Shown: one piece after another, positions 9,048 through 64,000 of the stretch
How the letters are laid out: each line of letters begins with the position of its first letter
How positions within the stretch are numbered: the stretch's first letter is position 1
DNA from: Acidobacterium sp.
Lineage (GTDB): Bacteria > Acidobacteriota > Terriglobia > Terriglobales > Acidobacteriaceae
Assembly (NCBI GenBank): GCA_003166955.1
Contig: PMUI01000050.1
Location: 44,718-108,717 of the forward strand
Direction: 5' to 3'
DNA: 64,000 bases
Made by a program: the position numbers and the translations under genes
Notes under the pieces: generated by a model
Told to the model about the DNA's origin: nothing
The model's input: the letters and a program-made list of their open reading frames with translations, nothing else
Database searches by the model: none

Positions 9048-9734
9048 ATGTCCCTTCAGATCGAACAACGCTTTCTGGGAAACGTCTTCATCCTCCAGTG
9101 CACCGGCCGCATCGTCCTCGGCGAAGAGCTAACCTCGCTGGAATCCGCGCTGCAAACCGTGGTCCGCGAATTCCATCGCATCGTGCTGAATGTCGCCGGC
9201 GTTACCCGTGTGGACAGCTCCGGCGTCGGCCTCTTCGTTCGTTACGTTGCCAACCTGCGCAAACGCGGCGGCGACCTCCGGCTCGCCTGCCCGCCGAAAT
9301 TCATCACGGAGATCCTCGAGATCACGCTGCTTTCCAAAGTGATCGATTCCTACGCCACCGAGCAGGACGCCATCCTGTCCTTCCTGCGCCAGCCAGCAGC
9401 GCCCGGCGAAGGCGACTACTCCGGCCATCACGTGCTCGTGGTCGACCGCTCTCCGGACCTCGGCGCCTTCGTCCGCGCAGTCCTCGGCCGCCGCGGCTAC
9501 GACGTCCGGCTCGCGAGCCTCGTCAGCGACGCGAAAATCCTGCTCCAGGTCCAGCCGGTCGAGTACATCCTTGTCGGCCCGGGCACTCCGCAGTTGCCCG
9601 CCGCCACTATCCTGGCCTCACTTAAAAACATCGCGCCCAAAGCCATCGCTCTCCAGCTCACGCCGGAGTTCCGCACCTTCGACGCACATCAGGCTGCCGA
9701 GCTTCTGATTGAAATGTTCCAGCAGGGCGAGTGA
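9048..9734 (+). CDS. STAS-domain protein with a degenerate receiver-like C-terminal domain
   Basis: About 228 residues. The N-terminal half (about residues 5-110) is a STAS domain of the anti-sigma-factor-antagonist type. It contains the expected phosphorylatable serine in VTRVDSSGVGLF and the LRLACPPKFITEILEI segment. From about residue 125 the chain reads HHVLVVDRSPDLGAFVRAVL and continues like a CheY receiver, but the position of the phospho-acceptor aspartate reads YILVGPG, so phosphotransfer is unlikely. Such a protein would bind an anti-sigma factor or similar partner and be switched by serine phosphorylation. No partner kinase or sigma gene is adjacent. An ATG at 9012 would add 12 Pro-rich residues; I prefer 9048. 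A GGAAGC repeat begins immediately after the stop. Confidence 0.75.
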   Translation: MSLQIEQRFLGNVFILQCTGRIVLGEELTSLESALQTVVREFHRIVLNVAGVTRVDSSGVGLFVRYVANLRKRGGDLRLACPPKFITEILEITLLSKVIDSYATEQDAILSFLRQPAAPGEGDYSGHHVLVVDRSPDLGAFVRAVLGRRGYDVRLASLVSDAKILLQVQPVEYILVGPGTPQLPAATILASLKNIAPKAIALQLTPEFRTFDAHQAAELLIEMFQQGE

Positions 9735-9866
9735 GTAGCTGGAAGCCGCAGGCTATCAGCTCGGATTTCGCTCGATTTTTACTCTACCCGCCTTACTCGC
9801 AGTTCGCTCGGGTTATGCTCACCTCTCGCTCGCTTCCTGCTTCCAGCTACCGGCTTCCAGCTGTTC
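9735..9866. repeat. Paired GGAAGC/GGTAGC repeats between convergent genes
   Basis: Two runs face each other. The first starts one base after the TGA of the STAS gene and reads GTAGCTGGAAGCCGCAGG on the + strand. The second, at about 9828-9866, reads CAGCTGGAAGCCGGTAGC on the minus strand. It overlaps the end of the ThuA-like gene, so that gene's TAG stop is the TAG inside a GGTAGC unit. Between them lies about 65 bp with no recognisable element. Confidence 0.65.
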
Positions 9867-10809
9867 TCACCGGATCCGACGCCCCATTCAGAAACGCCGG
9901 ATCCATCTCCTCGATGTCCACGCGCATACTCGTCGATCTGGCCGTCGGAAAATCCCCGGGCGCCTTCTGCGTGACTTTGCCCGTCGCCGCCCACTCCGTC
10001 CCGCGCTGAAACGTCGCAATGAAACCCACGCAGCTCAGCGCTGCCACATCGTGCCCCATCGTCGTGTGAAAGACGCGGCCCTTCCCATACGCGACCGTCA
10101 TCAGCATCGGCTCGTCGTGTCCCGTGCCTTTGTTCAGCGGATCGGAATGCGCCGTCGCCAGCACCGTCATGTTCTTCCCCGGCCCGCGCAGCGTCCCATA
10201 CAGCTCATCGGCGGCGTGCATCCACACCGGCGGCAGCCCCTTCATGATCGGGTGCTGGGGCGCGCGCGTCTCCACCTGGAACGGCAGCCGCCCTCCGTGA
10301 TGCCCCGCCGTTCCTGGCGTCGTCTTGTCCTCGACCAGCTTGTCGTCAGCGAAGTACCACATCGGCCCCGCGCTCTCGTCGCGGTTGCGCCATCCGCCAA
10401 TCCCGATCATCTCGTTGTAGGCGGCCCAGTGCGGAAAGGCATTGTCCGCAGCATGCACAATCACCAGCCCGCCGCCGCCCCGCACGTACTCCTCGAACTG
10501 TGTGCGCAGCGCCTCCGGCCAGTCCGGCGTATCGAGGTTCGACACAATGACGCGATACTTCGCAAACTCCGGCCTGAACTGGCTGAAATCCTCGCCCGAA
10601 TGCGGCGCAGTCACCACCGTCACCTCGAACAGCCCCGTCTCCTCCAGCTCCTTCTTCAAAACCGGCGTGGTCAGCCGCCAGTTGTGATACGTCCCGCCAC
10701 TCTCTCCATCGAGCAGCATCACCTTCATCGGTTTCGCCTGCGCACCCGCACTCACCGCACTCATTGCCAACCCGCACGTTCCCAACAAAAGAACGATGGC
10801 CCTCTTCAT
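9847..10809 (-). CDS. Secreted ThuA-like (trehalose-utilisation) domain protein
   Basis: A 320-residue protein with a Sec signal peptide (MKRAIVLLLGTCGLAMSAVSAGA). A ThuA-like domain of the glutamine-amidotransferase-like fold follows: VMLLDGESGGTYHNW, YRVIVSNLDTPDWP, GGGLVIVHAADNAFP, HPIMKGLPPVW and a C-terminal GKGRVFHTTMGHD. This family is tied to polysaccharide and trehalose metabolism, but its reaction is poorly defined. The ATG is supported by AAAGGGA upstream. It lies 28 bp downstream of the GH39 gene on the same strand, so the two form a likely operon devoted to sugar use in the periplasm. The last residues (TAGSR) are encoded by an intergenic repeat that also supplies the stop codon, so the true ancestral end may have differed. 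Confidence 0.87.
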   Translation of the reverse strand: MKRAIVLLLGTCGLAMSAVSAGAQAKPMKVMLLDGESGGTYHNWRLTTPVLKKELEETGLFEVTVVTAPHSGEDFSQFRPEFAKYRVIVSNLDTPDWPEALRTQFEEYVRGGGGLVIVHAADNAFPHWAAYNEMIGIGGWRNRDESAGPMWYFADDKLVEDKTTPGTAGHHGGRLPFQVETRAPQHPIMKGLPPVWMHAADELYGTLRGPGKNMTVLATAHSDPLNKGTGHDEPMLMTVAYGKGRVFHTTMGHDVAALSCVGFIATFQRGTEWAATGKVTQKAPGDFPTARSTSMRVDIEEMDPAFLNGASDPVRTAGSR

Positions 10810-10837
10810 CACGTCCCTTTCTGTCGCCAACAGCCGG

Positions 10838-12379
10838 CTACTTAATCTCCGCCACCGCCAGCCCCATCGGCGGCAGCGTCAGCGTCAGCCGATGATCCCG
10901 AATCGTAATCTCCTCTGCAGGCCCCGGCTCCGCCGCTTTCCGCAGCGCTTCAATCTGTTCCGCGGTCGGATACTTCGGGCTTCCCATCTTCTTCCAGGCA
11001 TCCAGCGTGTCGCCATGCGCCGCATCCACGCGCCGCACTTCGGCCTTCGTCCCCATCAGACCCGTGACGGTGTGCAGTCCCAGCCCGCTACCCAGGTTCT
11101 TCAGCTCGAACGTCACCGTCTTCTCCGTCCCACTGGCACCCGGCTCCACCAGGTTCCACGCCGCAATCACAATCGTCCCGTCCTTGCGCCGAGTGACGAG
11201 CGCATCATCCACCGGCGCAGGCAGCCGCTCCTCGCCCAGAGTGTGCAGCAGCATAAACACGTCATACGCCGGCTTCGGAATCCCGCGCTCCGCCACAATT
11301 CCGTAGCCGCCATAGAACGGCGTCTTCACCACGCCCTGCTCCTCAAACACATCCGAGAAGCTCCAGTACGCCATCATCAGCGTCTTCCCATCGCACTTCG
11401 AAATGGTGTCAGCCAGCCATGGTCCCATGTAGATCGAGTCGGTGATCGGCTGCTCGTTCATGTAGGTCGCATTGAACTCGCTCCAGATCAGCGGCAGCTT
11501 CGGCCGCGCCGACTTCGCAATCTCCTCATGCACCTTGTCCACCGCGGGGCACACCATCTGGTGCGGCGCCATCTCCCTGTGGTCGTGGAACACATCCATC
11601 GTCGAGTCGTTCCCGTAGACGTGCGTCGACACAAAATCCAGCGGCACCTCCTCCTGCGTGGCGTGCGCGATCAAATCCCCCACCCACGCCGCCTGCGCCG
11701 TCGCCGGGCCGCCTATGCGGATCTTCTCGTTCACTGCCTTCAGCGCCCGCGCCGTGTGGTCGTAGAGCTCGAAATACGTCTCCTGCGCCGGCCGCCCGAT
11801 CCAGAAATCGATGTTCGGCTCGTTCCACACTTCGAAATACCACTGCGCAACCTCTTCGATACCGTACCGCTGCACCAGATGTTGCCCAAACGCGGTGATC
11901 AGAGCGTCCCACTTCGCGTAGTTGTCTGGCGGAGAAGGAATTGGCTTGTACCAAAACGCGTGATAGGGAGCCTTTGGCGCCAGCGCTTTCGGCATGAAGC
12001 TGATCTCGACGAATGGCCGCACGGAGTGCGCCAGCAGCCCATCGTAAATCTGGTCCACATACGACCAGTTGTAGACCACGTTTCCCTGCGCATCCTCGCT
12101 GTAGACGCCGTTCTCATCGTCGAGAATCGCGTGGAAGCGCACATACCGGAAGTCCGCGGCCTTCCGCACGCGATCGAGATCCTCGCGATAGCTCTCCCGC
12201 ATCGACAGATTTGCGCGCCCCGACCCAAACATCTGCTCCCAGAAATGCGGAAACGGCGTCCCCGGCGCGTGTGCATCCACGATAATCGTCTTCCGCGCAC
12301 TCGACTGCTGCGCAACCGCGCTACCCCACGCCCCGCTCAGCAGACACGCCGCAACCGCAAAACTCCACATCTGTTTCAT
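10838..12379 (-). CDS. Secreted glycoside hydrolase family 39 (beta-xylosidase/iduronidase-like)
   Basis: A 513-residue enzyme with a signal peptide (MKQMWSFAVAACLLSGAWGSAVAQ). It has a TIM-barrel like that of GH39, where retaining hydrolysis uses two glutamates. The acid/base is Glu187 in WNEPN and the nucleophile is Glu301 in WSEFNATY. The segment VRFHAILDDENGVY near residue 80 and the C-terminal beta-sandwich fit beta-xylosidases. The substrate is probably a xylan-derived or related oligosaccharide in the periplasm, but alpha-L-iduronidase-type activity cannot be excluded. The ThuA-like gene follows 28 bp downstream, and a large Oar-like receptor lies upstream behind a terminator, which together look like a polysaccharide-use locus. 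Confidence 0.9.
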   Translation of the reverse strand: MKQMWSFAVAACLLSGAWGSAVAQQSSARKTIIVDAHAPGTPFPHFWEQMFGSGRANLSMRESYREDLDRVRKAADFRYVRFHAILDDENGVYSEDAQGNVVYNWSYVDQIYDGLLAHSVRPFVEISFMPKALAPKAPYHAFWYKPIPSPPDNYAKWDALITAFGQHLVQRYGIEEVAQWYFEVWNEPNIDFWIGRPAQETYFELYDHTARALKAVNEKIRIGGPATAQAAWVGDLIAHATQEEVPLDFVSTHVYGNDSTMDVFHDHREMAPHQMVCPAVDKVHEEIAKSARPKLPLIWSEFNATYMNEQPITDSIYMGPWLADTISKCDGKTLMMAYWSFSDVFEEQGVVKTPFYGGYGIVAERGIPKPAYDVFMLLHTLGEERLPAPVDDALVTRRKDGTIVIAAWNLVEPGASGTEKTVTFELKNLGSGLGLHTVTGLMGTKAEVRRVDAAHGDTLDAWKKMGSPKYPTAEQIEALRKAAEPGPAEEITIRDHRLTLTLPPMGLAVAEIK

Positions 12380-12454: not shown

Positions 12455-12482
12455 GGAGGATGCTCCGATCGGAACATCCTCC
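12455..12482 (-). terminator. Intrinsic terminator after the Oar-like receptor gene
   Basis: Read on the minus strand, GGAGGATG pairs with CATCCTCC around an inner TCCGATCGGA palindrome, and the hairpin is followed by TTTCTTTT. It lies 40 bp past the receptor stop codon and before the GH39 start, so it should separate the two transcripts. Confidence 0.75.
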
Positions 12483-12486: not shown

Positions 12487-12522
12487 TTCTGTGCTCTGCG
12501 CTCTGAGCCCTGTGCTCTGTCC
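12487..12522 (-). repeat. Low-complexity run directly after the receptor stop codon
   Basis: On the minus strand the TGA is followed at once by GGACAGAGCACAGGGCTCAG and AGCGCAGAGCACAG, a degenerate 7-8 base tandem (CAGAGCA-like). It has the same position relative to a stop codon as the GGTAGC runs elsewhere, but a different unit. Confidence 0.55.
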
Positions 12523-15500
12523 TCAGAACTGGATTCTCCCGAAGAACTCCACCACCCTCCCGCTGTCAGATCCCGGCGACAACCCGAACAGTGGATTGAT
12601 GACGTGCGTGCCCGGGCCGGAATTCGTCGAAACAAGTGCCTCAATCGACCCAAACCCGATCGGCTGCAGGTTCGTCAGGTTGAGAATGTTGAAGAAGTTG
12701 GCCTGGAACCGGAACAGCGTCGGGTGATCGTGGATGCTGAACGTCGCCTGCTTCGCGAAGCTCATGTCGAGGTCGTGATAGCAGGGCCCGTTGAAGGAGT
12801 TCCTGCCAACCCCCGGAGGCCCCGGCGTTCCGTACACGAAGTAGTTCGCCCCGCCCTGCGGGAAATTTCCGCCGTGAATGAAATTGCTGTTCCCGCAGCC
12901 ATTCAGCGCCGGACCTGCAGACGCTCCCGCCGTCGGCCCGTAGCCGGTGGGCCGCGTCGGCGCAATCGTCGAGGCGCCGTTCACGATTGCCACCGACGGC
13001 ACGCCGATCACCGGCGTCCACGGATAGCCCGTGTGCCACGTGTACACGCCGTTCATCTGCCAGTTGCCCAGCACATTCCGCATCAGCCCATTCTTTTCGG
13101 GTGTGGGCAGAGTCCATGTCCCGATCGCGTTGAACCGGTGCCGCACATCGAAATCCGAAGGCCCGTACTCCGCCCGCGGATTCGCAGGATCCGTCTGGTT
13201 GCTCTGAAAGCCCGGACCCTCTTCGGAGGCGTTATCCATGCTCTTCGACCACGTGTACACCGCGCTGAAGTCCAGCCCGTGTTGCAGCCGCTTCTCCAGA
13301 TGTCCATTCAGCGCGTGATAGTTGGTATGCACGTCCGAGGTGGGAACATACGCCGCGTAAAACGGCGTCTGGTTCACGCCCGGAGTGCACGTTCCTCCGG
13401 TTGCGCAGGTACCGTTCGACTGCGGATACAGAAAGTTCTGATCCACCAGCCGCAGAAAATGAAATCCCGAAGCTCCCTGATAGCCCAGGGTTGCCGCCAT
13501 CTGCCACGGCAGCGCCCACTCGTTATCCAGCGAGAAGGAATAGAGCGTCGGCTGCCGCATTCCGGGCAAAATGCTGTACGTCTCCACCTGCGGCGTCGAC
13601 GGCGTTCCGCCCGGCGGCGTGAATGCATTCGGCGTGCCCGTGGTCGGATTCGTTCCTACCGCAAGGTTCGGATTCGGAGCGTAACTGAAAGGCGAATCGC
13701 TCGTCCCGTACTCGAAAACGATTCCCGTCCCCGTTGAGTTGGGATTGGTCGCCTGCAGTCCGCCGCAGCACAAACCGTAGTCGAAATATCCCGGCCCGTT
13801 TTCGTACGCCGGCGAAATCGGCTCTTCGTCCAGATTGTCGAACGAAACCCCGGCGCCGCCGTGCACCACCACCTTCCCGTTCAGGAACATGGGCGACCAC
13901 GCGAAGCCGAGCTTCGGCGCGATGGCATCGCCGGTCCGCGGATACAGCGTGTCGGTTAGCGCCAGCTTCGAATTGATGATCTGATCGCCCAGCGTCTTCG
14001 ACAGCACCATGTTGTTGATCGAGAACGCCTTGTTCGTCAGCCCGCCGTACCACTCGTACCGCACTCCCACGTTCAGCGTCAGATTGGGCCGCGCCTTCCA
14101 GTCGTCCTGCACATACCCGGCATAGTAATCGCGCCTGAAATACCGCTGCACATTCCCCACACCGCCGGTGTTCGGATTGGCCCCGATCCCCTCATACAGC
14201 GGCGCATCGTTGGCCAGATCCCATAATCCCTGGAACGCGTAGTTCGGCCGTGCCAGGCCCGAGTCGTTATCGTTGTCCTGCTCTTGGCGAATCACCACGC
14301 CCATGCGCAGCGACATCGGCCCCATCACCTTGGTCGCTAGGTCGCGGATCTCGTACGTATTTTCCGCCGCGATATACGGCGTCGTCGGCGCGGCCAGCTG
14401 GCTGAACTGGAACGTCCCGAACCCGTAGTTCTGCGCGTAGATTCCCGGAACACCCCAGTTCACCTGCCCCGCCGTGTCACTGATCTGGTTATCCGCAAAT
14501 CGCGTGTAGTTCGCCCGCAGCTCGTTGATCAGCGTCGGCGTGAAAGTGTGAATCCACACCGGCGTCGCCGATTGGTTGAACGGCCGGAACGGCAGATTCG
14601 AATCCGGGGCAGCCCCCGCTGCCGAATCGAACGACGACTGGTCCAGCTTCTGCGTAAAGAACCCGGCATAAATCTGGTCCCGGTGTCCGATGTACCAGTC
14701 CCCGCGCCCGTGGAATTGTGTCCCGCGAAACTGGCTCGGCGTCTGGATCTGCGCGAACTCCACATCGGCCACGCCATCCAATCCCGCGCCCGTGTACAAA
14801 TTCGGATTCGCCGCCGTCCCATTCGCGTTCACGTTGGGCAAATACTGCCCGTCGGCGCCGCCGAACGATCCGATGTCGAACCCGGTGCCCACCGGCGCGC
14901 ATTGCGTCTGCAGCGCGCTGCACGCACCTGGCAATACGGCGCGCACCACCGCCCGTCCCGATGGCTTTGTAACCGTCCCTGCTACTAATCCGCTCGGCCT
15001 CGCCGCCGCCAGCGCCGCATACCATGCCGGCGTCGGCACGTACGTCTCGCTGAACGACTGCTGCGTGCTCTTCACCGCCTCATAGCTGCCAAACCAGAAC
15101 AGCTTGTCGCGAATGATGCGCCCGCCCAGGCTCGCCGCCCAGCTCCGCTGCGCCAAATCGTCGCGGATCGCAGGCGCAAATACCCCCGGCGTGCTCGTGG
15201 GCCCGCCATACGGCTGGTACGCATTCAGCCCCGGCTCGTCGTACTGGAAAAACGCGCTTCCGTGATACGTATTCGAGCCGGCTTTTGTCACCGTCAGGAT
15301 ATGCCCGCCGACATCGCGCCCCAGGGTCGCATCGTAATTCGCCGCCAGGATCGTGATCTGGTCCACCGCCTCGATACTCGGCGTCACGATCGTCGAACCG
15401 CCATGCAGCAGGCTGTCCACCGTCACGCCGTCAATCTCGTAGGTGTTCGAGGTCACGCGCTGCCCCGACGCCGAAATCTGAATCTGGTTCTCCGTCTGAA

Positions 15501-16152
15501 AAATCCCCACGTTCGACTGGTTCTGGCTCGTGTTGTTGGGCAGCGCGATCGCGCCCCCGCTCCCCGACCGCGCGCTGTCTCCGGTGATGCCCACGCCCGT
15601 CCGCAGCAACTCGTAGGGATCGCGTCCGAACGCCGGCAGCCGCGTCACATCGTCCGCGCTGATCGTGCTCGAGGTCGACGCATCCGAGGTATTCAGAACC
15701 GGCGTCTCACTCCCGTTTACCGTCACCGTCTCAGACGCTCCGCCCGCCGTCAGCTTCATATCCAGCCCGCGCGGCTGCTCCGCCGTGATGGCAACATCGG
15801 TGTAATCCTGTTCCTTGAATCCCTTCGCCGTGACCTTCACCGCATAATTTCCCGGCGCCAGCTCGGTGAAGGTATAGAACCCGCTATCGTTGCTCGTCGC
15901 CGTCTTCGTCACCTGCGTCGCAGGATTGGTCAGCGTGATCGTCGCTCCCGGAATCACCGCGCCGCTGGTGTCGGTCACCGTGCCATTCAGGCTGCCGCCA
16001 AACTGCGCGTGCAGCGCGGGCGCGAGAATCAGTAACAGTGTTGCGAACAAAAACGCCAGCTTTTGGCTGGCGCTGCCGGTAAGAATCACTGGATGAAAAA
16101 CGCTGTCTGCACTCCGCGCTTCGCGGAGCAGTGCTGTTGGAGCAAGATGCAT
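12523..16152 (-). CDS. Oar-like TonB-dependent receptor with carboxypeptidase-regulatory-like domain
   Basis: A 1209-residue outer-membrane protein. After a signal segment (KLAFLFATLLLILAPALHA) comes a CarboxypepD_reg-like domain (GGSLNGTVTDTSGAVIPGAT, then GFYTFTELAPGNYAVKV). A plug domain (LPAFGRDPYELLRTGVG, YEIDGVTVDS) and a long beta-barrel follow, ending in an aromatic residue (VVEFFGRIQF) as expected for BAM-inserted barrels. These proteins are common and numerous in Acidobacteriota and are thought to import or bind large glycans; the substrate here is unknown. The ATG is chosen for the AGGGAGA 6 bases upstream; an in-frame extension of 47 residues has no signal character. It lies upstream of the GH39 and ThuA-like genes with a terminator between, consistent with a shared role in polysaccharide use. 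Confidence 0.93.
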   Translation of the reverse strand: MHLAPTALLREARSADSVFHPVILTGSASQKLAFLFATLLLILAPALHAQFGGSLNGTVTDTSGAVIPGATITLTNPATQVTKTATSNDSGFYTFTELAPGNYAVKVTAKGFKEQDYTDVAITAEQPRGLDMKLTAGGASETVTVNGSETPVLNTSDASTSSTISADDVTRLPAFGRDPYELLRTGVGITGDSARSGSGGAIALPNNTSQNQSNVGIFQTENQIQISASGQRVTSNTYEIDGVTVDSLLHGGSTIVTPSIEAVDQITILAANYDATLGRDVGGHILTVTKAGSNTYHGSAFFQYDEPGLNAYQPYGGPTSTPGVFAPAIRDDLAQRSWAASLGGRIIRDKLFWFGSYEAVKSTQQSFSETYVPTPAWYAALAAARPSGLVAGTVTKPSGRAVVRAVLPGACSALQTQCAPVGTGFDIGSFGGADGQYLPNVNANGTAANPNLYTGAGLDGVADVEFAQIQTPSQFRGTQFHGRGDWYIGHRDQIYAGFFTQKLDQSSFDSAAGAAPDSNLPFRPFNQSATPVWIHTFTPTLINELRANYTRFADNQISDTAGQVNWGVPGIYAQNYGFGTFQFSQLAAPTTPYIAAENTYEIRDLATKVMGPMSLRMGVVIRQEQDNDNDSGLARPNYAFQGLWDLANDAPLYEGIGANPNTGGVGNVQRYFRRDYYAGYVQDDWKARPNLTLNVGVRYEWYGGLTNKAFSINNMVLSKTLGDQIINSKLALTDTLYPRTGDAIAPKLGFAWSPMFLNGKVVVHGGAGVSFDNLDEEPISPAYENGPGYFDYGLCCGGLQATNPNSTGTGIVFEYGTSDSPFSYAPNPNLAVGTNPTTGTPNAFTPPGGTPSTPQVETYSILPGMRQPTLYSFSLDNEWALPWQMAATLGYQGASGFHFLRLVDQNFLYPQSNGTCATGGTCTPGVNQTPFYAAYVPTSDVHTNYHALNGHLEKRLQHGLDFSAVYTWSKSMDNASEEGPGFQSNQTDPANPRAEYGPSDFDVRHRFNAIGTWTLPTPEKNGLMRNVLGNWQMNGVYTWHTGYPWTPVIGVPSVAIVNGASTIAPTRPTGYGPTAGASAGPALNGCGNSNFIHGGNFPQGGANYFVYGTPGPPGVGRNSFNGPCYHDLDMSFAKQATFSIHDHPTLFRFQANFFNILNLTNLQPIGFGSIEALVSTNSGPGTHVINPLFGLSPGSDSGRVVEFFGRIQF

Positions 16153-16386
16153 ACTGGCTCTCCCTGAAATAAGTGCAACGTACCCGTGATGTTCCCTGGC
16201 CTTGCAGGGATGCCCGCTTTTCCATAATCGAGACCCAGGTCCCGCCCCCACAGGCGGTCCGTGCCCACAAAACTGCGTGATTCTCCCCGGCACACTCGTC
16301 CCGAAGTGGAGATCAGCCAGCGGTTATAGTGCAGAAAGAGAGAATCACCTCCCTGTGACCCTGCACCACGTCCGAGGCGATCAAAT

Positions 16387-31232: not shown

Positions 31233-32399
31233 TTAAACCCGATCATCGCCCAACGCAAACCGCAGTTCGTGCGACTCGCTCCAGGCCATGCGCAGTCCGC
31301 CCGAGACCGGACTGCTTCCCATCAGCCGCACCGCCCTGATCGTCAGCGTCATCCATGCCGGCGCCGATCCATCCGGCCACAGCTCGCGCAGCGGCCGGGC
31401 CACGCCATTCCGGTCCGGGTGCCATACCCGCTCGTCCCAGGTGCGCGAACCCTGCGGGAAATCCGGATAGTCGCGAATCACATCCAGCGTCGACTCCAGA
31501 ATCCGGTGCTTCCACGGCTGCGCGTACTGCGGCATGAACAGCACGTGGCTGCGATCCTCATACCGCACCTCGTGCACAAACTCCGTGAAGCTCGCCGCCT
31601 GCGACAGATTCACATTCGCGTTCGGCTCCAACCCATGCCGGTCGCCGCCCGAGATCAGCAGCTTGTTCCACTTCTGCGCCAGCCGCTTCACGCTGCGGTT
31701 TTCTTCCCAGTGCCGCAGGCCGTTCAGCTCGAAGGCGTGCATGAATTCGTGATTCGCCGTCAGGAAGTCCTGCACCCGCTGCGCCGCCTTCTCCGCGCCG
31801 ATCAGGTACAGGTCCCACATCGGATGGTTGAACACGATCAGCACGTTCGGCAGCTCATGCAGAGCGGCCAGAATCTCCGTCAGCTTCTTTTCGTCCGGAT
31901 GCGCCGTGTATTTCGCAAACGTCTTCATCCACGCGGCGCCCGAATCGCTGGGCAGGTTGTGGATGCCAAGATGAAACGCCTGATCCCCGCCGAACGGCGC
32001 GCTCCACTCCACCGAGACCGGGATGTGCCGCGCCGCAGCCACCGTGCGCAGCAGCATCGGAGCAGCGATCGTGTCGTGGTCCGTGATCGAAACCAGCGGC
32101 ATCAGGTGCAGTTTCTTCTCGATCTGCCCGCTCTCCACGTCGAACGCAATACGCGGCGTCAGCGGAGGGGTCCAGTGCGCTGCAGCATAATTAACCGGGA
32201 TGCTGTGCTGCTCGCGCGACTTCCGCTCGCTGCGGGCAAGAATCGGCCGCAGCAACGGATACTGGTTTCCCAGATTGGCCAGGAAATCCAGTGTCTCTTT
32301 GGACTGGTTGGTGTGACTGTGCAGCGAAACCGCCGTCGAATAGCTTTCAGCGGCGTCAGGTTCCTTCCAGAGATAGGATATGCGGCGCAGACTGGCCAT
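31233..32399 (-). CDS. PHP-domain metal-dependent phosphoesterase-like protein
   Basis: A 388-residue soluble protein with the metal-binding motifs of the PHP superfamily: LHSHTN near residue 26, SITDHDT near residue 103, FNHPMW near residue 195 and SGGDRHG near residue 250. PHP proteins hydrolyse phosphoester bonds using two or three metals; the substrate is unknown. The insert between motifs and the C-terminal third (RTWDERVWHPDRNGVARP) are not typical of small YciV-like enzymes. GGAGG lies 6 bases before the ATG. The GT4 gene follows 66 bp downstream. This gene pair could act in synthesis of a cell-envelope glycan, which is inference only. Confidence 0.8.
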   Translation of the reverse strand: MASLRRISYLWKEPDAAESYSTAVSLHSHTNQSKETLDFLANLGNQYPLLRPILARSERKSREQHSIPVNYAAAHWTPPLTPRIAFDVESGQIEKKLHLMPLVSITDHDTIAAPMLLRTVAAARHIPVSVEWSAPFGGDQAFHLGIHNLPSDSGAAWMKTFAKYTAHPDEKKLTEILAALHELPNVLIVFNHPMWDLYLIGAEKAAQRVQDFLTANHEFMHAFELNGLRHWEENRSVKRLAQKWNKLLISGGDRHGLEPNANVNLSQAASFTEFVHEVRYEDRSHVLFMPQYAQPWKHRILESTLDVIRDYPDFPQGSRTWDERVWHPDRNGVARPLRELWPDGSAPAWMTLTIRAVRLMGSSPVSGGLRMAWSESHELRFALGDDRV

Positions 32400-32635
32400 G
32401 GAAAACCTCCCGAGGTCGTCTTACTTGCATCAGTATCCGTTGTGCACCATGAATGAGGCATTACGGGCTCAAAAATGATGGGTCAAATGATCGTGAGAAT
32501 CAGCAAAGGTAACGTTACTTACGCGAAACTCCGCTCCCCGCAAATCCTTGAAAGCCGGGCATTTCCATGGTTAGTCCCCTGGGACGTCCTGTGGTAACTG
32601 ACTGACAAATACCCTGCCGCAATGGTTACATTTTC

Positions 32636-45534: not shown

Positions 45535-45590
45535 GGGGCGTGTCCCGGGCTCGCAACAAAAAAGAAGGGGCGGCTCATCCCGCCCCTTCC

Positions 45591-45690
45591 CACTTCCCAC
45601 TTCCCACTTCCGGCTTCCGGCTTCCGGCTTCCGGCTTCCGGCTTCGCGCTTCCAGCTTCGCGCTTCCAGCTTCGCGCTTCCAGCTACTCC
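45591..45690 (-). repeat. Longest GGAAGC-type tandem repeat, touching an ADOP stop codon
   Basis: On the + strand the unit CTTCCCA occurs three times, then CTTCCGG about five times, then CTTCGCGCTTCCAG (14 bases) three times. On the minus strand this is TAGCTGGAAGC and related units, and the TAG that stops the ADOP gene at 45684 is the first TAG of the run. It fills nearly the whole 149-bp gap between the convergent receptor and ADOP genes. Confidence 0.8.
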
Positions 45691-48353
45691 CGCAGAGCCT
45701 TCATCGGCTCCACATACATCGCGCGCCGCGCGGGAACATAGCACGCCAGCATCGCAATCGCCGCCAGCGCGTCCGATACACCGAGATACGTCGCCGGATC
45801 CCCCGGGCTCACCACAATCAAACTGTGCAGCAGATGCGCGATGCCAAAGCTCGCCGCCAGTCCCACCGCCAGCCCGATCCCCACAATCCACATGCCCTGC
45901 TTGTAAACAATCCTCAGAATGTCACCACGTCCAGCGCCCAGCGCCATCCGCACGCCAATCTCGCTGGTCCGCTGGCTCACCACATACGACAGCACGCCGT
46001 ACACGCCCACAATCGCCAGCACCAGCCCCAGTGTCCCCATGATCCCCGCCAGCGTCGCGATGATCTGGAACAGCAGCAGCCCGTTCGGCGTGTAGAGCGC
46101 CTGATGCAGCGTCTTCACGTCGAACACCGGCAGGTTCGGCGCCATGTCGTTAATCGAGCGCTCCAGCACCGGCAACGTCGTCCCCGGTTCACCCACCGTC
46201 CGCACCTCCAGCGTCTCCAGCGAATTCGTCGCGTAGTGCTGCAGGAACGGCACGTAGAAATACGGAGCGGGCGCCTGGCGGAACCCTTGGTACCGTGCAT
46301 CCCGCGCTACGCCCACTACCTGCAGCGGATGCGCCGGATCGCTGTTCATCGTGAACTCCCGTCCGATCGCGTCCTGATGCGGCCAGTATTGCTTCGCCAT
46401 CGCCTCGCTCACGATCGCGACATAAAGATGATTCTCATCGTCCGCATCGCTGAAGTTGCGCCCCGTGTCCAACGGAATCTGCAGCGTCGCAAAATAATCT
46501 GTCGCGATCAGGTTGTAGGCGATCACCAGCGCACTCTGCCCCGCCGGCGGCTGATATCCGTTCACCGTGATCGTGTCGCCGCCATTGCCCACCAGCCCCA
46601 TCGGAACCATCAGCGCCGTCGTCGCCGACTTTACGCCCGGCAGCGCGCGCACCCTCTGCAGAAGATCCTTATAGAAGTCCCGCGCCCTCGGATCGTTGTA
46701 GCCAATCTCCCCCGGGTCCATCATCATCGTCATCACGTTCGCCGGATTGAACCCCAGCTCCGCGTGTTCACTCTGCGTCAGGCTCCGCGTAAACAGCCCC
46801 GCAATAATCAGCAGGATCATCGCACTCCCCACCTGCACCGTCACCAGCGCATCGCGGAACCGGTGCCCGCCGCCCGCAACGCCGCGTCCGCCCTCCCGCA
46901 AAACCATGTTCAGATTCGCGCGCGCCAGGCGCAGCGCCGGCACGATTCCCACCAGCGCGCCCGCAGCCACAGCCACCGCCATCGAAAACGCCAGCACGTG
47001 CCAGTCAAATCCAAAATCGAAGTGCAGCGGCAAATCCGTTCCGAGATTGATCGAGCTCAGCAGATGGCTCCCCCACAATCCCAGCCCGATCCCCGCCACA
47101 CCGCCGCACACCGCCAGCAAAATGCTCTCCGTCAGCATTTGCCGGATCAGCCGCGTCCGCGCCGCGCCCAGCGCCGACCGGATCACCATCTCCCGCTCCC
47201 GCACCGTCGCCCGCACCAGCAGCAGGTTCGCGACGTTCACGCATGCCAGCAGCAACACCACGCCCGCCAGCCCCAGGAAGAACCACGCCACCTCGCCGAT
47301 CGCATTCTGCGGATCGAACCCCGCGTTTCTCCCCACCCACATCGGAAACGACGCCAGTTCCACATTCTTGTCCGCAACCGGCTGCTCCGCCGCAAGCCGC
47401 CGAGCCACGACTGCCAGGGTCGCGGTCGCCTGCTGCCTCGCCACTCCGGGCCTCAGCCGTCCGTAGAGTCGCAGGTTGCGGTTCGTCGGTTTGCGATACT
47501 CGCTCAGCGGCGTGCTCTCGATGGGCACAATCATCGCCAGCGGCAAGTACGCCTCGACCGAAAGCGCCGTGTTCACTCCGCGATAATCCTTCGCCGTCAC
47601 GCCGACCACGGTCATCGGATGGCCGTCCAGCAGCACATGCTTCCCCACTACATTGGGGTCCGCTGCGAAATGCCGCTTCCAGTACGCATAGCTCAGCACC
47701 ACCACCGGATCGGCGCCCGGCGTCACGCCCTCGCCCGCATGGAACAGCCGCCCCAGATACGGCTCGACGCCCAGCGCATCGAAGAAATCCCCCGTCACAT
47801 AATCCGTGAACGCGCGATCCGGCTTGTTGCCCTCCATGCTCAGCCCATCCAGCCCATACGCGTCGCCCACCACGCCGCTGAACACGTCGCTCGTCTGGCC
47901 GTGCATGGCCTCGTACTCCGCCAGCGAAAACTGCGGCTGCCACGGCGTCCCCTGCTGCCGCGATCCAATTTCCTGCAGCCGGTTCTCCTCCCGGACGTGC
48001 AGGGAGCTGAACAGCAGCCCGTTCACCATGCTGAAAATCGCCGTGTTCACGCCGATCCCCAGCGCCAGCGTCACAATCGCGATCGCCGCAAACCCTGGGC
48101 TCCGCCGCAGCTGGCGCAACGCGTAGCGTACATCGCGCCCCAGATCCTCCACCGAAACCAAACTGTTCATCTTCCAGATCTCCTCACGAATCATCGTTGG
48201 ATTCCCGAGCTTCATGTACGCCCGCCGCCTCGCCTCGCCCGCCGTCATCCCGCGCGCGACGTTGTCCGCGGTCTCCTGCTCGAGGTGCGCTTCCAGCTCG
48301 CGCGCTCGCTCCTCGTCCCACTCCCGTCGTCGCAGATATCGGCGCAGGCTCAT
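45684..48353 (-). CDS. ADOP-family MacB-like permease with N-terminal helical domain
   Basis: An 889-residue orphan permease. The first ~75 residues (MSLRRYLRRREWDEERAREL, then GMTAGEARRRAYMKLGN) form the soluble helical domain found in the longer ADOP subtype. The standard opening DVRYALRQLRRSPGFAAIAI and two MacB-like permease halves follow, including LLACVNVANLLLVRATVRE. The C-terminus is YVEPMKALRE, and its stop codon lies at the edge of a tandem repeat. The PadR gene is 31 bp upstream on the same strand, and PadR repressors commonly regulate linked ADOP genes, so this pair is probably an autoregulated operon. Confidence 0.92.
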   Translation of the reverse strand: MSLRRYLRRREWDEERARELEAHLEQETADNVARGMTAGEARRRAYMKLGNPTMIREEIWKMNSLVSVEDLGRDVRYALRQLRRSPGFAAIAIVTLALGIGVNTAIFSMVNGLLFSSLHVREENRLQEIGSRQQGTPWQPQFSLAEYEAMHGQTSDVFSGVVGDAYGLDGLSMEGNKPDRAFTDYVTGDFFDALGVEPYLGRLFHAGEGVTPGADPVVVLSYAYWKRHFAADPNVVGKHVLLDGHPMTVVGVTAKDYRGVNTALSVEAYLPLAMIVPIESTPLSEYRKPTNRNLRLYGRLRPGVARQQATATLAVVARRLAAEQPVADKNVELASFPMWVGRNAGFDPQNAIGEVAWFFLGLAGVVLLLACVNVANLLLVRATVREREMVIRSALGAARTRLIRQMLTESILLAVCGGVAGIGLGLWGSHLLSSINLGTDLPLHFDFGFDWHVLAFSMAVAVAAGALVGIVPALRLARANLNMVLREGGRGVAGGGHRFRDALVTVQVGSAMILLIIAGLFTRSLTQSEHAELGFNPANVMTMMMDPGEIGYNDPRARDFYKDLLQRVRALPGVKSATTALMVPMGLVGNGGDTITVNGYQPPAGQSALVIAYNLIATDYFATLQIPLDTGRNFSDADDENHLYVAIVSEAMAKQYWPHQDAIGREFTMNSDPAHPLQVVGVARDARYQGFRQAPAPYFYVPFLQHYATNSLETLEVRTVGEPGTTLPVLERSINDMAPNLPVFDVKTLHQALYTPNGLLLFQIIATLAGIMGTLGLVLAIVGVYGVLSYVVSQRTSEIGVRMALGAGRGDILRIVYKQGMWIVGIGLAVGLAASFGIAHLLHSLIVVSPGDPATYLGVSDALAAIAMLACYVPARRAMYVEPMKALRE

Positions 48354-48855: not shown

Positions 48856-48915
48856 GCTTCCCAGCTCCCAGCTCCAGGATCCAAGCTACGAGTTACCGGC
48901 TACAGGCCACCGGCT
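48856..48915. repeat. GGTAGC/GCTCCC-type repeat between divergent genes
   Basis: The + strand shows GCTTCCCAGCTCCCAGCTCC, then CCAAGCTACGAGTTACCGG and CTACAGGCCACCGGCT. It is the same family as the runs after stop codons, but here it lies between the divergent padR and HipA-like genes, ending 15 bp before the HipA-like ATG. Confidence 0.6.
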
Positions 48916-57855: not shown

Positions 57856-57922
57856 CTGCTCCCTCCATGCTCCCCGCTCCCGGCTCCTGCCTACTCCCTA
57901 TTGGCTACTCCCGACTCCCTGC
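57856..57922. repeat. CTCCC/GGCTACT-type repeat between divergent genes
   Basis: The + strand shows CTGCTCCCTCCATGCTCC, then CCGCTCCCGGCTCCTGCC and CTATTGGCTACTCCCGAC, a degenerate tandem of the same general style as the other runs. It lies between the nuclease gene and blaI, 33 bp before the first BlaI operator. Confidence 0.55.
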
Positions 57923-58006: not shown

Positions 58007-58396
58007 ATGAAGCGCCACCACCCACTCCCAAGGCCCACCGAAGGCGAGCTCGAACTCCTCCGCATCCTCTGGGACCGCGGTCCCTCCACCGTCCGCGACC
58101 TCCATCAGCAAATCAATACCACCCGCGCCCTCGGCTACACCTCGGTGCTCAAGCTCCTCCAGATCATGACCGAGAAAGGTCTCGTCGAGCGCGAAGAGTC
58201 CGCCAGGGCCCACGTCTACCACCCCGCCGCCACACAGAACGAAACCCAGGACCAGCTCGTCCGCGACATCAGCCAGCGCCTCTTCGCCGGATCCGCCGCA
58301 CAACTCGCCATGCACGCGCTCGCCCTCGAGCCGGTCAACGATCAGGAACTCGAAGCACTCCGCAATCTCATTGAGCTAAAGAGGCACCGTCTATGA
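58007..58396 (+). CDS. BlaI/MecI/CopY-family repressor
   Basis: A 129-residue winged-helix repressor: PRPTEGELELLRILWDRGPS, then the recognition helix region LGYTSVLKLLQIMTEKGLVE, followed by a C-terminal dimerisation helix pair. BlaI-type proteins bind two operators as dimers and are cleaved when the partner BlaR1 protease is activated. The ATG at 58007 is chosen because the ATG at 57995 lies inside the -10 element; transcription should begin at about 58004, so the mRNA is probably leaderless or nearly so. The stop overlaps the blaR1-like ATG as ATGA. No beta-lactamase gene is near. Confidence 0.93.
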   Translation: MKRHHPLPRPTEGELELLRILWDRGPSTVRDLHQQINTTRALGYTSVLKLLQIMTEKGLVEREESARAHVYHPAATQNETQDQLVRDISQRLFAGSAAQLAMHALALEPVNDQELEALRNLIELKRHRL

Positions 58397-60582
58397 CGCA
58401 CCACTGGGAAGCCCTCGGCTGGACCTTAGTCCATTTCCTCTGGCAGGGCGCCGCCATTGCCATCGTCTACCGCATCGCCGATCTCGCGCTCGCCCGCCGC
58501 TCCGCCAACGCCCGCTACGTGCTCGCTCTCGGCGCGCTCCTCGGCATGCTCGCCCTCTCCGTCGGCACCCTCGCGTACGAAGAGTCGGCCTTGGCCCCGC
58601 GGATTGACCGCACCGCCGCTGCCCGCTTCTTAGCTGACCGGCCCATAGCTGACCGCTTTTTAGCTGACCGGACTTTAGCTGACCGGCCCTCCGCTGACCG
58701 GCCCTCCGCTGACCGCCTTCTAGCTGACCGCTTCTTCCCCACCCACCTCATGCCCTGGCTCGACGCCCTCTGGCTCGCCGGCGTCCTCTTCCTCTCCACC
58801 CGCACCCTCGGCGGATGGTGGCTCATCCACCGTCTCCGCGCGCGTCTTCAGCAAGCCCCGCACACGCTCCTCCTCCGTCTCGACGTCCTCCGCCGCCAGA
58901 TGAACATCGCGCGCTTCGTCGACCTGCGCCTCTCCACGCGCATCACCAACCCGCTCACCGCAGGCGTCCTGCGCCCCTGGATCCTGCTCCCCATCACCGC
59001 GCTCACCAGCCTCAGCCCCGAGCAGCTTGAGGTCGTCCTCTCCCACGAGCTCGCGCACATCCGCCGCGCCGACTACCTCTGGAACCTCCTCCAGACCATC
59101 GTCGAGACCCTCTTCTTCTTCCACCCCGCCGTCTGGTGGATCAGCCGCCGCGTCCGCGAAGAGCGCGAGCTCTGCTGCGACGACGTCGCCCTTCGCGCCT
59201 GCTCCGATCCCACCGTCTACGCCTCCGCGCTCCTCCGTCTCGAAGAAGAGCGCCGCACCCGTCTGCATCTCGCTATGGCCCTCGACGGCCATCAGTCTCG
59301 CGCCGGCCTTCGCGCCCGCATCCTCCGTATTCTCGGTTCTGGTCAGGCCGCCAGCGAACCCACGCCCGCCGCCTTCCGCCCCATCTCGCTCGCCGGAATC
59401 GCCACCGCCCTCATCGTCTTCTGCTGCCCGCTGCCGAAGGTCTTCGCCAGCTTCCGCGCCGTACCCCAGGTCCCCGCACGCATTGCCCCGGCTGCCAGCC
59501 AGGTCGCCCGTACCGTCGCGTTCAAAGCGACGCACCCCATGCAGGAAGCCGCGCCCGCGCCCAAACCCAGTGCCGCTCAGCCCGCGCCAACCGCAACGCC
59601 GGCCTCAACCCCCGACGAAGCCCAGAATCCCGAACCGGCTCCAGAGCCGCAGTCCTCCGAAGCTCCAACAACCGGCCGCTCCGACTACATCGACCAGATG
59701 CGTGCCGCAGGCTATAACGTCGACCTCGACAAATATATTGCGATGAAAGTCCAGGGCATCACCCCCGCTTACGCCGCGGCCATGTCCAAAGCCTTCGGCG
59801 AAAAACTCTCCGCCGACAAACTCATCGCGATGAAGGTCCAGGACATCACCGCCGACTACATCAACAAGATGCGCGCCGCAGGCTACGACGTCGACGCCGG
59901 CAAGTTCATTGCCATGCGCGTGCAGGACATCACGCCCGAGTACGCCGCCGAAATGGCCAAAGCCACCGGCGAAACCAAGCTATCCGCCGACAGGCTCATC
60001 GCGATGAAGGTCCAGGACCTGACTCCCGACTACATTGCCAAAATGCATGCCGCCGGTTATGACGCCGACACCGGCAAACTCATCGCGATGAAGGTCCAGG
60101 ACATCACGCCCGAGTACGCCGACCAGATGTCCAAACTCGGCTTCGGCAAGCCCACCCTCGACCAACTCATCTCCATGAAGGTCCAGGGCGTCACCCCCGA
60201 GTGGGCCGCCAAACTCCACTCCGATGGCATCGAGGCCTCCAGCTTCAGCGACCTCGTCACCTACCGCATCTTTGACGTCTCGCCCGATTTCGTCGCAGGC
60301 ATGAAAGCCGCCGGCTTCGGCGATATCCCGCCGAAGAAGCTCGTCGCGCTCCGCGTGCAGAACGTCACCCCCGACTTCGCGAAGAGCGTCAAAGCCCAGT
60401 TCCCCGACGTCACACTCGACGACCTCGTCCAGATGCGCATCTTCAACATCGATGCGGCCTTCATCGCCTCCGCCAAACGCCACGGCTTCGAGGGGCTCAC
60501 CATTCAGAAACTCGTCAAGCTCCGCATCTCCGGCATCCTCGACGACGCCGACAAGAACCAGGAGCCGATCAAGACAAATTAG
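58393..60582 (+). CDS. BlaR1/MecR1-like M56 metallopeptidase with C-terminal repeat array
   Basis: A 729-residue membrane protease. Helices lie near residues 8-28, 40-60, 118-140 and 334-352. The zinc motif is HELAHIRRADYLWN (His218-His222) with the later EERELCCDDVAL. The family activates by cleaving itself and then BlaI. Residues 78-112 are a pentapeptide array (xxADR type) inserted in the loop between helices 2 and 3. Instead of a penicillin-binding sensor domain, the exported C-terminus has a Pro/Ala-rich linker (about 380-425). About ten repeats of roughly 24-26 residues follow, of the form LIAMKVQDITPEYAAEM. The same repeat fills the next encoded protein, so that part is probably the sensor. 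Confidence 0.92.
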   Translation: MTHHWEALGWTLVHFLWQGAAIAIVYRIADLALARRSANARYVLALGALLGMLALSVGTLAYEESALAPRIDRTAAARFLADRPIADRFLADRTLADRPSADRPSADRLLADRFFPTHLMPWLDALWLAGVLFLSTRTLGGWWLIHRLRARLQQAPHTLLLRLDVLRRQMNIARFVDLRLSTRITNPLTAGVLRPWILLPITALTSLSPEQLEVVLSHELAHIRRADYLWNLLQTIVETLFFFHPAVWWISRRVREERELCCDDVALRACSDPTVYASALLRLEEERRTRLHLAMALDGHQSRAGLRARILRILGSGQAASEPTPAAFRPISLAGIATALIVFCCPLPKVFASFRAVPQVPARIAPAASQVARTVAFKATHPMQEAAPAPKPSAAQPAPTATPASTPDEAQNPEPAPEPQSSEAPTTGRSDYIDQMRAAGYNVDLDKYIAMKVQGITPAYAAAMSKAFGEKLSADKLIAMKVQDITADYINKMRAAGYDVDAGKFIAMRVQDITPEYAAEMAKATGETKLSADRLIAMKVQDLTPDYIAKMHAAGYDADTGKLIAMKVQDITPEYADQMSKLGFGKPTLDQLISMKVQGVTPEWAAKLHSDGIEASSFSDLVTYRIFDVSPDFVAGMKAAGFGDIPPKKLVALRVQNVTPDFAKSVKAQFPDVTLDDLVQMRIFNIDAAFIASAKRHGFEGLTIQKLVKLRISGILDDADKNQEPIKTN
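58624..58731 (+). repeat. 15-bp in-frame minisatellite in the blaR1-like gene
   Basis: Seven 15-base units such as CGCTTCTTAGCTGAC and CGGCCCTCCGCTGAC (two identical copies of the latter) encode RxxAD pentapeptides. They contain TTA and CTA leucine codons that are rare in the surrounding GC-rich genes. The AGCTGACCGG core resembles the AGCTACCGG of the intergenic repeats. Confidence 0.85.
59680..60560 (+). repeat. Coding repeat array at the BlaR1-like C-terminus
   Basis: About ten degenerate repeats of 24-26 residues, each with a core such as LIAMKVQDITPEYAAEM followed by a G-rich turn. The first ones are nearly identical at the DNA level (ATGAAGGTCCAGGACATCAC recurs), the later ones diverged. 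Similar repeats make up residues ~95-264 of the next gene product. Confidence 0.8.
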
Positions 60583-62950: not shown

Positions 62951-63133
62951 AACCCGGACGACCATGCTGTTAACTCAGCCGAGTCTGCTATTAACTCGGC
63001 CCAGTCCCCGTCAAACTCGTCCGGGATGACCTCATCCTCGGCCAAGCCCCAACTGACGTTGCGTGAATCACCTGCGCCAAACTCAGCCGAGTTTGCATCA
63101 AACTCGGCCGACTCTGCGTCAACTTCAACCAGG
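62951..63133. repeat. 21-bp degenerate tandem repeats with palindromic core
   Basis: Units start at 62951, 62972, 62993, 63014, 63080 and 63101, with 45 decayed bases between the fourth and fifth. A typical unit is AACTCAGCCGAGTTTGCATC, whose first half (AACTCGGCCGAGTT in consensus) is close to a palindrome. Both strands stay open through the array because the period is a multiple of three. Confidence 0.7.
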
Positions 63134-63266
63134 TACGGATCTGATAGGTCTCCGGTCACTTGCCCGGGTCATCGAGGCCGGTCGATCACGCAACGTGCTG
63201 AAAAGAAGTCACGAGCTAGTTTTTCGAAGGGCCAGTTTTTCCCCGCACCGCCTCGGATCGCGGAAC

Positions 63267-63295
63267 GAGCCACTGGCTACCAGCTACCGGCTGGG
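63267..63295 (-). repeat. GGTAGC-type repeat just after the glgC stop codon
   Basis: On the minus strand, a few bases past the glgC TAA, the sequence reads CCAGCCGGTAGCTGGTAGCC then AGTGGCTC, the same unit as at 7781-7816 and 9735-9866. Confidence 0.65.
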
Positions 63296-63298: not shown

Positions 63299-64000
63299 TT
63301 ACTCTCTCCGCTCCTGCAGAAAATCCGCCGAAACCGGATTCTCGTAGAGCGAATAGTCCCGCGTCACCACCGTCAGCCCGCTCGGCGTCACGAAGTAGTT
63401 CTTCCGGTCGTCGCTCGGATCGTAGCCGATCACGGTTCCTTCCGGCAGATGCACATCGCGATCGATGATCGCCCGCCGAATCCGGCAGTGCCGCCCGATG
63501 TTCACGTGCGTGAACACAATGCTCGAGTCCACCTCCGAGTACGAGTTCACGCGCACGTCCTGCGAGAGCACGCTGTTCCGCACCACTGCACCAGAAACGA
63601 TGCAACCGCCCGATACCAGTGAGTTAATCGACATACCCGTCCGGCCCGGCTCGCCAAACACAAACTTCGCCGGCGGATACTGTCGCACCCGCGTCCGAAT
63701 CGGCCAGCTGTTGTCGTACAAATTGAATATCGGCGAAACCGAAGCCACGTCCATGTTCGCGTCGTAGTACGCTTCGAGCGTCCCAACGTCGCGCCAGTAA
63801 AGGGCTTCCTTGCGGTTCTCATCTACGAAGTTGTAGGCGAACATCTTGTACTTGCCCAGAATCGCCGGCAGAATGTTGTGCCCGAAGTCGTGCTGCGACT
63901 CCGGATCTTCGGCGTCCTTGATCAATGCCGGCAGCAAAACATCAGTATTGAAAAGGTAAACGCCCATCGAAGCGTCCACCATGGTCGGATTGAAAGGCGA
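63299..64000 (-). CDS. glgC: Glucose-1-phosphate adenylyltransferase (C-terminal part; start off the window)
   Basis: This is the C-terminal ~234 residues of ADP-glucose pyrophosphorylase, which makes ADP-glucose from ATP and glucose 1-phosphate for glycogen synthesis. The visible part includes the end of the nucleotidyltransferase domain (ASMGVYLFNTDVLLPAL, DFGHNILPAI, YWRDVGTLEAYYDANMDV) and the left-handed beta-helix (SGAVVRNSVLSQDVRVNSYS, CRIRRAIIDRDVHLPEG). The frame is open at the window edge, so the N-terminal half is missing here. A GGTAGC-type repeat follows the stop. The neighbours do not include other glycogen genes within the window. Confidence 0.94.
   Translation of the reverse strand, partial: SPFNPTMVDASMGVYLFNTDVLLPALIKDAEDPESQHDFGHNILPAILGKYKMFAYNFVDENRKEALYWRDVGTLEAYYDANMDVASVSPIFNLYDNSWPIRTRVRQYPPAKFVFGEPGRTGMSINSLVSGGCIVSGAVVRNSVLSQDVRVNSYSEVDSSIVFTHVNIGRHCRIRRAIIDRDVHLPEGTVIGYDPSDDRKNYFVTPSGLTVVTRDYSLYENPVSADFLQERRE

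Follow-up and report, generated by a model that had tools for sequence, protein, structure and literature searches.

Cyanobacterial heptanucleotide repeats are known as STRRs, and REP/BIME elements are built on a palindromic unit of some 20 to 40 nt that is linked to a RAYT transposase. The arrays described below are, like the former, heptanucleotide arrays in a bacterial genome (a likeness by description only) and differ from the latter in having a unit of 7 nt. Three heptanucleotides of Calothrix are cited among the cyanobacterial repeats by Rehm et al. (2015; PMC4692102). According to the excerpts of that paper available here, Xanthomonas and Nostoc carry G-rich heptameric repeats (GGGNATC and GGGGA(C/T)T) whose function was left open. 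The downstream arrays are intergenic and lie mostly less than 50 bp from a stop codon, on the coding strand, with some overlapping the stop; the 5' neighbour ORF is closer than the downstream ORF, whatever its direction. Some form inverted convergent pairs, the sequence and length of the unit vary between close species, and the Xanthomonas repeats are described as having no preference for the leading or lagging strand. The TAACTGA direct repeats of marine Beggiatoaceae (MacGregor 2015; PMC4679880, likewise in excerpts) have a fixed unit and are found mostly just upstream of starts. Through the same two papers, heptamers are reported to outnumber every other class of long repeat in most of the genomes surveyed, and slippage over a 7-nt polymerase contact has been proposed for bacterial long repeats. 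Among the top matches listed from openly available literature, we found no description of this system, whether under heptamer repeats of Acidobacteria or under repeats that follow stop codons.

In the Acidobacterium sp. studied here, a soil bacterium, and in its close relatives, many genes bear short seven-base arrays directly at their stop codons. Of the known kinds, the GGGNATC heptamer array comes closest: as described in the excerpts of PMC4692102, it is also intergenic, has a period of 7, lies near a stop on the coding strand and follows the 5'-neighbour rule. An unfixed unit and an unshared quadruplex potential set the present arrays apart, and their core is an in-phase AG instead of the G tract of the GGGNATC and GGGGAYT units. 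With the TAACTGA repeats, as far as the excerpts of PMC4679880 describe them, they share intergenic heptamers at gene edges and many genomic copies. The class of long heptanucleotide SSRs, as reported in the two papers, has length as its only defining feature, to which the present arrays add a strand, an AG core and a register to the stop.

The window, a stretch of 64,000 nucleotides, has its longest array at the end of a permease gene.

45586-45685, minus strand: heptamer array of 100 bp, the longest in the window, starting at the TAG stop of gene 45684-48353
45684-48353, minus strand: gene for a MacB/FtsX-domain (ADOP-type) permease by Pfam, its TAG stop in register with the array
45562-45591, minus strand: intrinsic terminator-like hairpin with a T tail, directly 3' of the array, on the strand of gene 45684-48353

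Read in sense order, the array consists of 14 heptamers: three pairs of xAGCTGG + AAGCGCG, five AAGCCGG and three AAGTGGG. The first x of xAGCTGG is the T of the TAG stop. Related features occur elsewhere in the window.

2496-2528, plus strand: GGGTACA/GGGTGCA array in a 48-bp gap between two minus-strand genes
7612-7653, plus strand: GGTAGCC-type array in the same gap as the 7781 array and inverted to it, with 12 shared inverted 7-mers
7781-7820, minus strand: GGTAGCC-type array starting at the TGA of gene 7819-8961
9735-9747, plus strand: two units, GTAGCT GGAAGCC, directly 3' of the TGA of the STAS-domain gene 9012-9734
9828-9863, minus strand: GGAAGC/GGTAGC array enclosing the TAG stop of the ThuA gene 9847-10830
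12455-12482, minus strand: hairpin followed by a T-rich run, 3' of the 12488 array (coordinates by eye)
12488-12524, minus strand: CAGAGCA-type array directly 3' of the TGA of gene 12523-16293
48856-48914, minus strand: degenerate heptamer array in a gap, passing from GGGAGC-type to GTAGC-type units
57859-57903, minus strand: degenerate GGGAGC-type heptamer array in a gap
63265-63292, minus strand: GGTAGC array 6-10 bp 3' of the TAA of gene 63299-63982

An earlier sequence-only reading had named degenerate tandems that begin near stop codons in this window. All were found again, the one at 9735 with two units only, which falls below the array threshold used; those at about 7781, 9828, 12488 and 63265 overlap the stop of a minus-strand gene or start within about 6-10 bp of it. 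The TAG stop that it saw in or at the edge of the unit in a ThuA-like and an ADOP gene is indeed there, lying inside the 9828 array in the first case and starting the array in the second. Further runs that it placed in gaps at 2500, 7622, 48856 and 57856 were recovered at 2496, 7612, 48856 and 57859. Pfam assigned 9847-10830 (minus strand) to ThuA and 9012-9734 to a STAS-domain protein, and a scan of the genome contigs with the latter protein found no relative. Twelve bases of 9735-9747 recur in inverted orientation in the 9828 array. At 2496, the AG-bearing strand is opposite to both flanking genes. A counterpart of the 7781 array was absent from the orthologs of the three relatives compared; a run similar to the 63265 array was seen by eye in the ortholog of one relative (G006), below the threshold of the ortholog comparison.

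Other tandem repeats lie in the window as well. A 15-base repeat at 58605-58736 is inside a predicted gene and keeps the reading frame, since 15 is a multiple of 3; its reverse complement is similar to the 15-base units (CGGTYAGCTAA...) with which several ribosomal-protein spacers of contig C54 are filled. A 174-bp tandem repeat of 2.6 copies spans 59681-60135 within the predicted gene 58393-60582, and the gap at 62965-63122 contains 21-base repeats of type CAAACTCAGCCGAGTCTGCAT, with similar 21-base repeats on contig C39 of the same genome.

Counts in the wider genome established that the stop-adjacent heptamer repeats are real and more extensive than first noted. The genome comprises 5.41 Mb in 142 contigs, 1.63 Mb of which were used for the array tests: a main set of 1,259,771 bases with 920 called genes, and later contigs of 372,439 bases. 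Genes were called by our own codon-usage script, without annotation, and their starts are rough. The contigs, later ones included, were picked mostly for repeat matches, which biases array density upward and has no obvious effect on the tests of position, strand and register. Arrays were detected independently of unit sequence, as intergenic self-similarity at a fixed spacing. At a threshold of 17/21, spacing 7 yielded 55 intergenic arrays, spacings 4, 5, 8, 10, 11 and 13 yielded 0, 0, 0, 1, 2 and 0, and spacings 14 and 15 yielded 28 and 9. At 15/21, there were 116 arrays at spacing 7; four without a flanking gene were dropped, and the 112 with called genes on both sides compare with 4 to 10 at spacings 5, 8, 10, 11 and 13 over 1.26 Mb. 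The later contigs contained 48 arrays at lag 7 versus 0 to 4 at control lags. In the whole genome, GGAAGCNGGAAGC had 165 matches and the three-unit pattern GGNAGCNGGNAGCNGGNAGC had 175, versus 0 for either pattern written backward, and this control rules out plain composition as the cause in the source genome.

The association with stop codons held throughout the 1.63 Mb counted. In the main set, 52 of 112 arrays overlapped a stop or lay within 15 bp of one, whereas random placement of arrays within gaps predicted 13.0 (standard deviation, 3.4; maximum, 27 in 1,000 permutations). The corresponding numbers for the later contigs were 29 of 48 and 6.5 (standard deviation, 2.4; maximum, 15 in 500). 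Start edges were occupied at the level of chance in the 112-array set (13 arrays versus 14.2 expected), so that these arrays of many units at stops differ from the TAACTGA repeats as described in PMC4679880. At stops, AG was on the sense strand in 44 arrays, on the antisense strand in 11 and unclear in 2. Counted from the genes, 71 of 651 post-stop stretches overlapped an array.

Tests of edges and strands used the 134 of 141 arrays that have a clear strand. The nearer ORF edge was on the 5' side of the AG strand in 102 of these. When this 5' edge was a stop, 60 of 84 arrays started within 15 bp of it; when it was a start, 29 of 50 lay within 50 bp. Against a control with placement in the same gap, the excess at start edges was seen within 50 bp (28 versus 19.5; p 0.0005) and was absent within 15 bp (10 versus 8.6). 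In tandem gaps where AG is antisense to both genes, 22 of 31 arrays were nearer to the start edge than to the stop edge.

It had also been proposed that the arrays can move stop codons. Small shifts were found in one gene: the ThuA C-end reads DPVRTAGSR in the source genome, with array-derived codons, DPIRSR in relative G010 and DPVRDTSASH in relative G011. Elsewhere the stop was mostly not made by the array. The comparison listed 14 ortholog rows in which at least one of the two genomes has an array; beyond the alignment, the stop of the relative came with no extra codon in 10, one in 3 and seven in 1, and with the exception of the ThuA gene we rejected arrays as general makers of stops on these counts.

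The unit itself varies. GGNAGCN, YAGGSAR, CAGAGCA, CAGCGTT, YAGCG and YAGAG families all occur, and in 64 stop-adjacent arrays (those adjoining two stops were left out), taken in coding-strand orientation, there are 46 consensus units, some of them mere phase variants. Because the units vary in this way, and because several orthologous spacers hold different units, the single common seed from which the sequence-only reading derived the repeats fails. Most arrays share the period of 7 and, in phase with it on the sense strand, an AG; this AG recurred in 44 of the 64, compared with 20 for GC, 14 for GG and 6 for CT. The phase of AG relative to the stop was non-uniform (p 8e-7; 83 stop-anchored sense arrays). 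The AG of TAG stops was itself in phase with the array in 18 of 31 cases (4.4 expected), and the first in-phase AG was at index 7 or 8 in 15 of 32 arrays after TGA and at index 6 or 7 in 14 of 20 after TAA.

Local expansion by slippage, the other half of that proposal, was borne out. Outside AG, the identity between units at distances 1 to 6 was 0.695, 0.639, 0.573, 0.519, 0.549 and 0.547, falling up to four units and then staying near 0.55, and the 45591 array is built as blocks of like units. Neighbour units more alike than distant ones fit the expectation from slippage, and copy number varies between relatives. Mismatch between neighbours was lowest at G (0.06-0.07 in two large families, a value partly biased by AG phasing). 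We rejected directional growth from the ORF edge: the two halves of 93 arrays were equally perfect (0.697 and 0.692), and perfection was not lower farther from the edge (Spearman 0.14, p 0.11). We likewise rejected the spread of a single larger element, as no shared flanks were seen by eye except for a threefold copy on contig C79. One gap of that contig (L044) contains, at about 31997-32428, three copies of a heptamer array, about 200 bp apart and sharing 18-21 7-mers.

Spacers without a detected array lacked AG periodicity in the source genome (lag-7 ratio 0.86; other lags 0.84), and the arrays are therefore largely discrete things. The same was true of G008 at lag 7 (10 versus 12.2); in G006, lag 7 was the top lag, with a small excess (54 versus 45.1). 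On these counts a diffuse AG periodicity of all 3' spacers was rejected.

The arrays are also strongly biased between the DNA strands, unlike the Xanthomonas arrays as reported in PMC4692102. Of 134 arrays, 118 had AG on the strand that is locally G-rich, presumably the leading one (Fisher p 1e-14); the genes split 686 to 607. In the later contigs, the numbers were 38 of 45 arrays and 184 to 114 genes. In gaps between two minus-strand genes of regions with a G-rich plus strand, all 13 clear-strand arrays off stops were on the plus strand. The ribosomal L2 gene was on the G-rich strand in both genomes examined, as were 6 of 9 tRNAs; rpoB, on a 13-kb contig, was not. The preference of AG for the G-rich strand (leading, as presumed) suggests a mutational asymmetry linked to replication. 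For 28 arrays from other bacteria, mostly Acidobacteriota, with short loci, the strand bore no relation to local GC skew (12 of 28 matched).

Where orthologous spacers both have arrays, their units usually differ, most clearly inside the ribosomal-protein operon. Downstream of the outer-membrane gene 12523-16293, CAGAGCA units in the source genome and TAGGGAT units in G006 occupy the same place, and related terminator-like hairpins lie 3' of both arrays. Gene 10838-12379 is followed by no array in the source genome and by TAGGGTN, CAGGTTR and TAGCTGT units in G006, G010 and G011, respectively (these units, like the other ortholog units named, were read by eye). The gene at 2541 has a long CAGGGTA array in G006 and about four units on the other strand in the source genome. 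Among 82 C-end orthologs shared with G006, arrays were found in 11 in the source genome and in 6 in G006, with 3 in both (8 and 3 single).

The operon on contig C54 encodes, by Pfam, L3, L4, L23, L2, S19, L22, S3, L16, L14, L24, L6 and L18. Thirteen of its spacers were at least 30 bp long and had a matched C-end in G006. Tandem repeats of any period from 5 to 16 within the first 130 nt were present in both species in 10 of these (one of which follows a mis-called gene end), in neither in 3 and in one species only in 0. This identical occupancy hints at a function or a strong local hot spot. Outside the cluster, 90 of 537 co-directional spacers hold a tandem repeat of period 5-16, and lag-7 arrays were found in 8 of 20 co-directional spacers of the cluster versus 56 of 537 elsewhere. 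Four ribosomal-protein spacers differ in period, with 11 or 15 in the source genome and 7 in G006. The S3-L16 spacer has YAGGGAA-type units in the source genome and CAGGTTA-type units in G006 between similar flanks, and the spacers 3' of L6 and L18 contain, by eye, inverted array pairs in both species, with different units. The long stem of the L6-L18 spacer, at 9613-9713 of contig C54 (L329), is built from its inverted heptamer arrays. That sister species can fill one ribosomal-protein spacer with unlike units is a further difference from the GGGNATC arrays as described in the excerpts of PMC4692102.

Within the genus, matches to the pattern GGNAGCNGGNAGCNGGNAGC were uneven, with 202 in G008, 247 in G010 and 0-4 in G001, G003, G004, G007 and G009. 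Stops were again preferred in G006 (14 of 23 arrays versus 1.9 expected) and G008 (5 of 6 versus 0.9); G003 had a single array in 188 kb. A wider sample came from a protein scan with window gene 5864-7519: of 582 loci the best 80 were used, which represent many bacteria (for the most part Acidobacteriota), with the best matches in Acidobacteriaceae. Here, 14 of 33 arrays were at stops versus 3.7 expected, and arrays were nearer to the 5'-side edge in 13 of 14 cases if it was a stop and in 7 of 14 if it was a start. The period was less specific, with 33 arrays at lag 7, 13 at lag 8 and 2-9 at lags 5, 10, 11 and 13. Identical runs in unrelated genera had been considered a possible sign of a simple compositional effect. 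Of 396 genomes from the phylum, 19, in several families, do have GGNAGCN arrays; composition as their source does not fit the backward control, which was 0 in 16 of the 19. In G131, G178 and G402, the backward GGNAGCN control had 14, 22 and 13 matches (with some in a few others), which may mark another heptamer family.

The most likely explanation, which we hold with moderate confidence, combines slippage-born heptamer arrays, tolerance just after the stop and an asymmetry between the replication strands. Each array would start from a short seed near a stop, where a TAG stop can supply the first AG, and its length would change in 7-base steps by replication slippage while the non-AG positions drift. 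Arrays would arise repeatedly in the untranslated spacer just 3' of the stop and survive there because a 7-base indel would harm no frame, promoter or ribosome-binding site; the same change shifts the frame in a gene and disturbs the ribosome-binding site near a start. The constancy of AG may, at a guess, reflect a two-base match needed for re-alignment. Slippage and tolerance do not fully explain AG, the register to the stop and the strand bias. In particular, an AG kept while the rest of the unit changes is not accounted for by plain slippage and tolerance alone, and simple tolerance does not predict the start-edge preference of AG-antisense arrays in tandem gaps. Also counted against slippage are the pairs of arrays in one gap, 17 of 20 of which keep the same strand although only 3 of the 17 share many 7-mers (the pairs are non-independent, one gap giving 5), the 12 of 28 matches to strand skew in other bacteria and the missing gradient of perfection from the ORF edge. 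The kept AG is what would be read if the arrays were a selected, sequence-flexible RNA element, with a protein or a post-termination ribosome recognizing AG every 7 nt after the stop. Units would then be replaceable as long as AG and spacing stay, selection keeping the place and slippage replacing the letters. This tentative and rather unlikely alternative is favoured by the in-phase recurrence of AG (44 of 64 arrays versus 6 for CT and 20 for the next dinucleotide), by the low mismatch at G, with its partial phasing bias, by the non-uniform register and by ribosomal-protein spacers occupied in both species with different units. It is at odds with the absence of AG periodicity from array-free spacers of the source genome and G008 (G006, with lag 7 on top, being the exception), with the small share of post-stop stretches that overlap an array, with the local-duplication signature of slippage and with an occupancy that is mostly not common among the 82 general orthologs.

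A role in transcript 3' ends, suggested by the sequence-only reading, found no support as a general rule. Arrays lie between co-directional ribosomal-protein genes and are probably not transcript 3' ends there; 5 of 83 stop-anchored arrays are in co-directional gaps of 60 bp or less. Our terminator finder, which is crude and overlooked at least the one at the 12488 array, placed a terminator downstream of only 10 of the 60 stop-anchored arrays, and the arrays themselves do not contain the hairpin with a U tract of an intrinsic terminator. Judging from sequence, arrays are thus unlikely to be transcript ends as a rule. Alone, they were hardly structured (mean z -0.42, median -0.17; 57 arrays), and RNA structure of the array itself was rejected as a common feature. 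As an alternative, a processing or protective stem could form if the post-stop AG array pairs with a CT array that lies inverted ahead of the next gene. The inverted pairs 3' of L6 and L18 in both species agree with such hairpin arms, as do the L6 spacer, which folds at -52 kcal/mol (z -5.8), and the arrays that pair with the rest of the gap at z < -3 (8 of 70 versus 2 of 70 in the control) or have an exact 11-base inverted partner in the gap (7 of 141 versus 10 of 639 control pieces). We nevertheless consider them improbable as the explanation, given that most arrays have no partner (62 of 70 were not below z -3), that same-gap pairs are mostly co-oriented and that single arrays fold so little. 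Expansion coupled to transcription, in which untranslated sense RNA after the stop (e.g., through R-loops) drives slippage in highly transcribed genes, would account for the density of lag-7 arrays in the ribosomal-protein cluster and for the 44-to-11 excess of sense AG at stops; it is hardly likely, as the strand follows GC skew also off stops and against both genes, in 13 of 13 arrays. Least probable of all is a quadruplex-forming array after the model of the Xanthomonas and Nostoc GGGNATC heptamers. Period, position and the 5'-neighbour rule are as in the excerpts of PMC4692102, and four GG tracts occur close together on the sense strand in 30 of 64 arrays (antisense, 12). Unlike in the GGGNATC arrays, four GGG tracts are rare (sense strand, 8 of 64 arrays; antisense, 2), which speaks against a quadruplex as a common feature, and the CAGAGCA, CAGCGTT and TAGAGTT units have no G tract.

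The prevalence of heptamers and their crowding at gene ends are without a tested explanation in the available parts of PMC4692102 and PMC4679880. Sister species that have different heptamers in the same ribosomal-protein spacers constitute a natural experiment in which position and period are separable from sequence, and the G-rich-strand bias and the AG register are testable handles on a mutational versus a selective cause. If a flexible post-stop element were the true explanation, it would mean a tuning of translation or mRNA processing between the genes of the ribosomal-protein operon.
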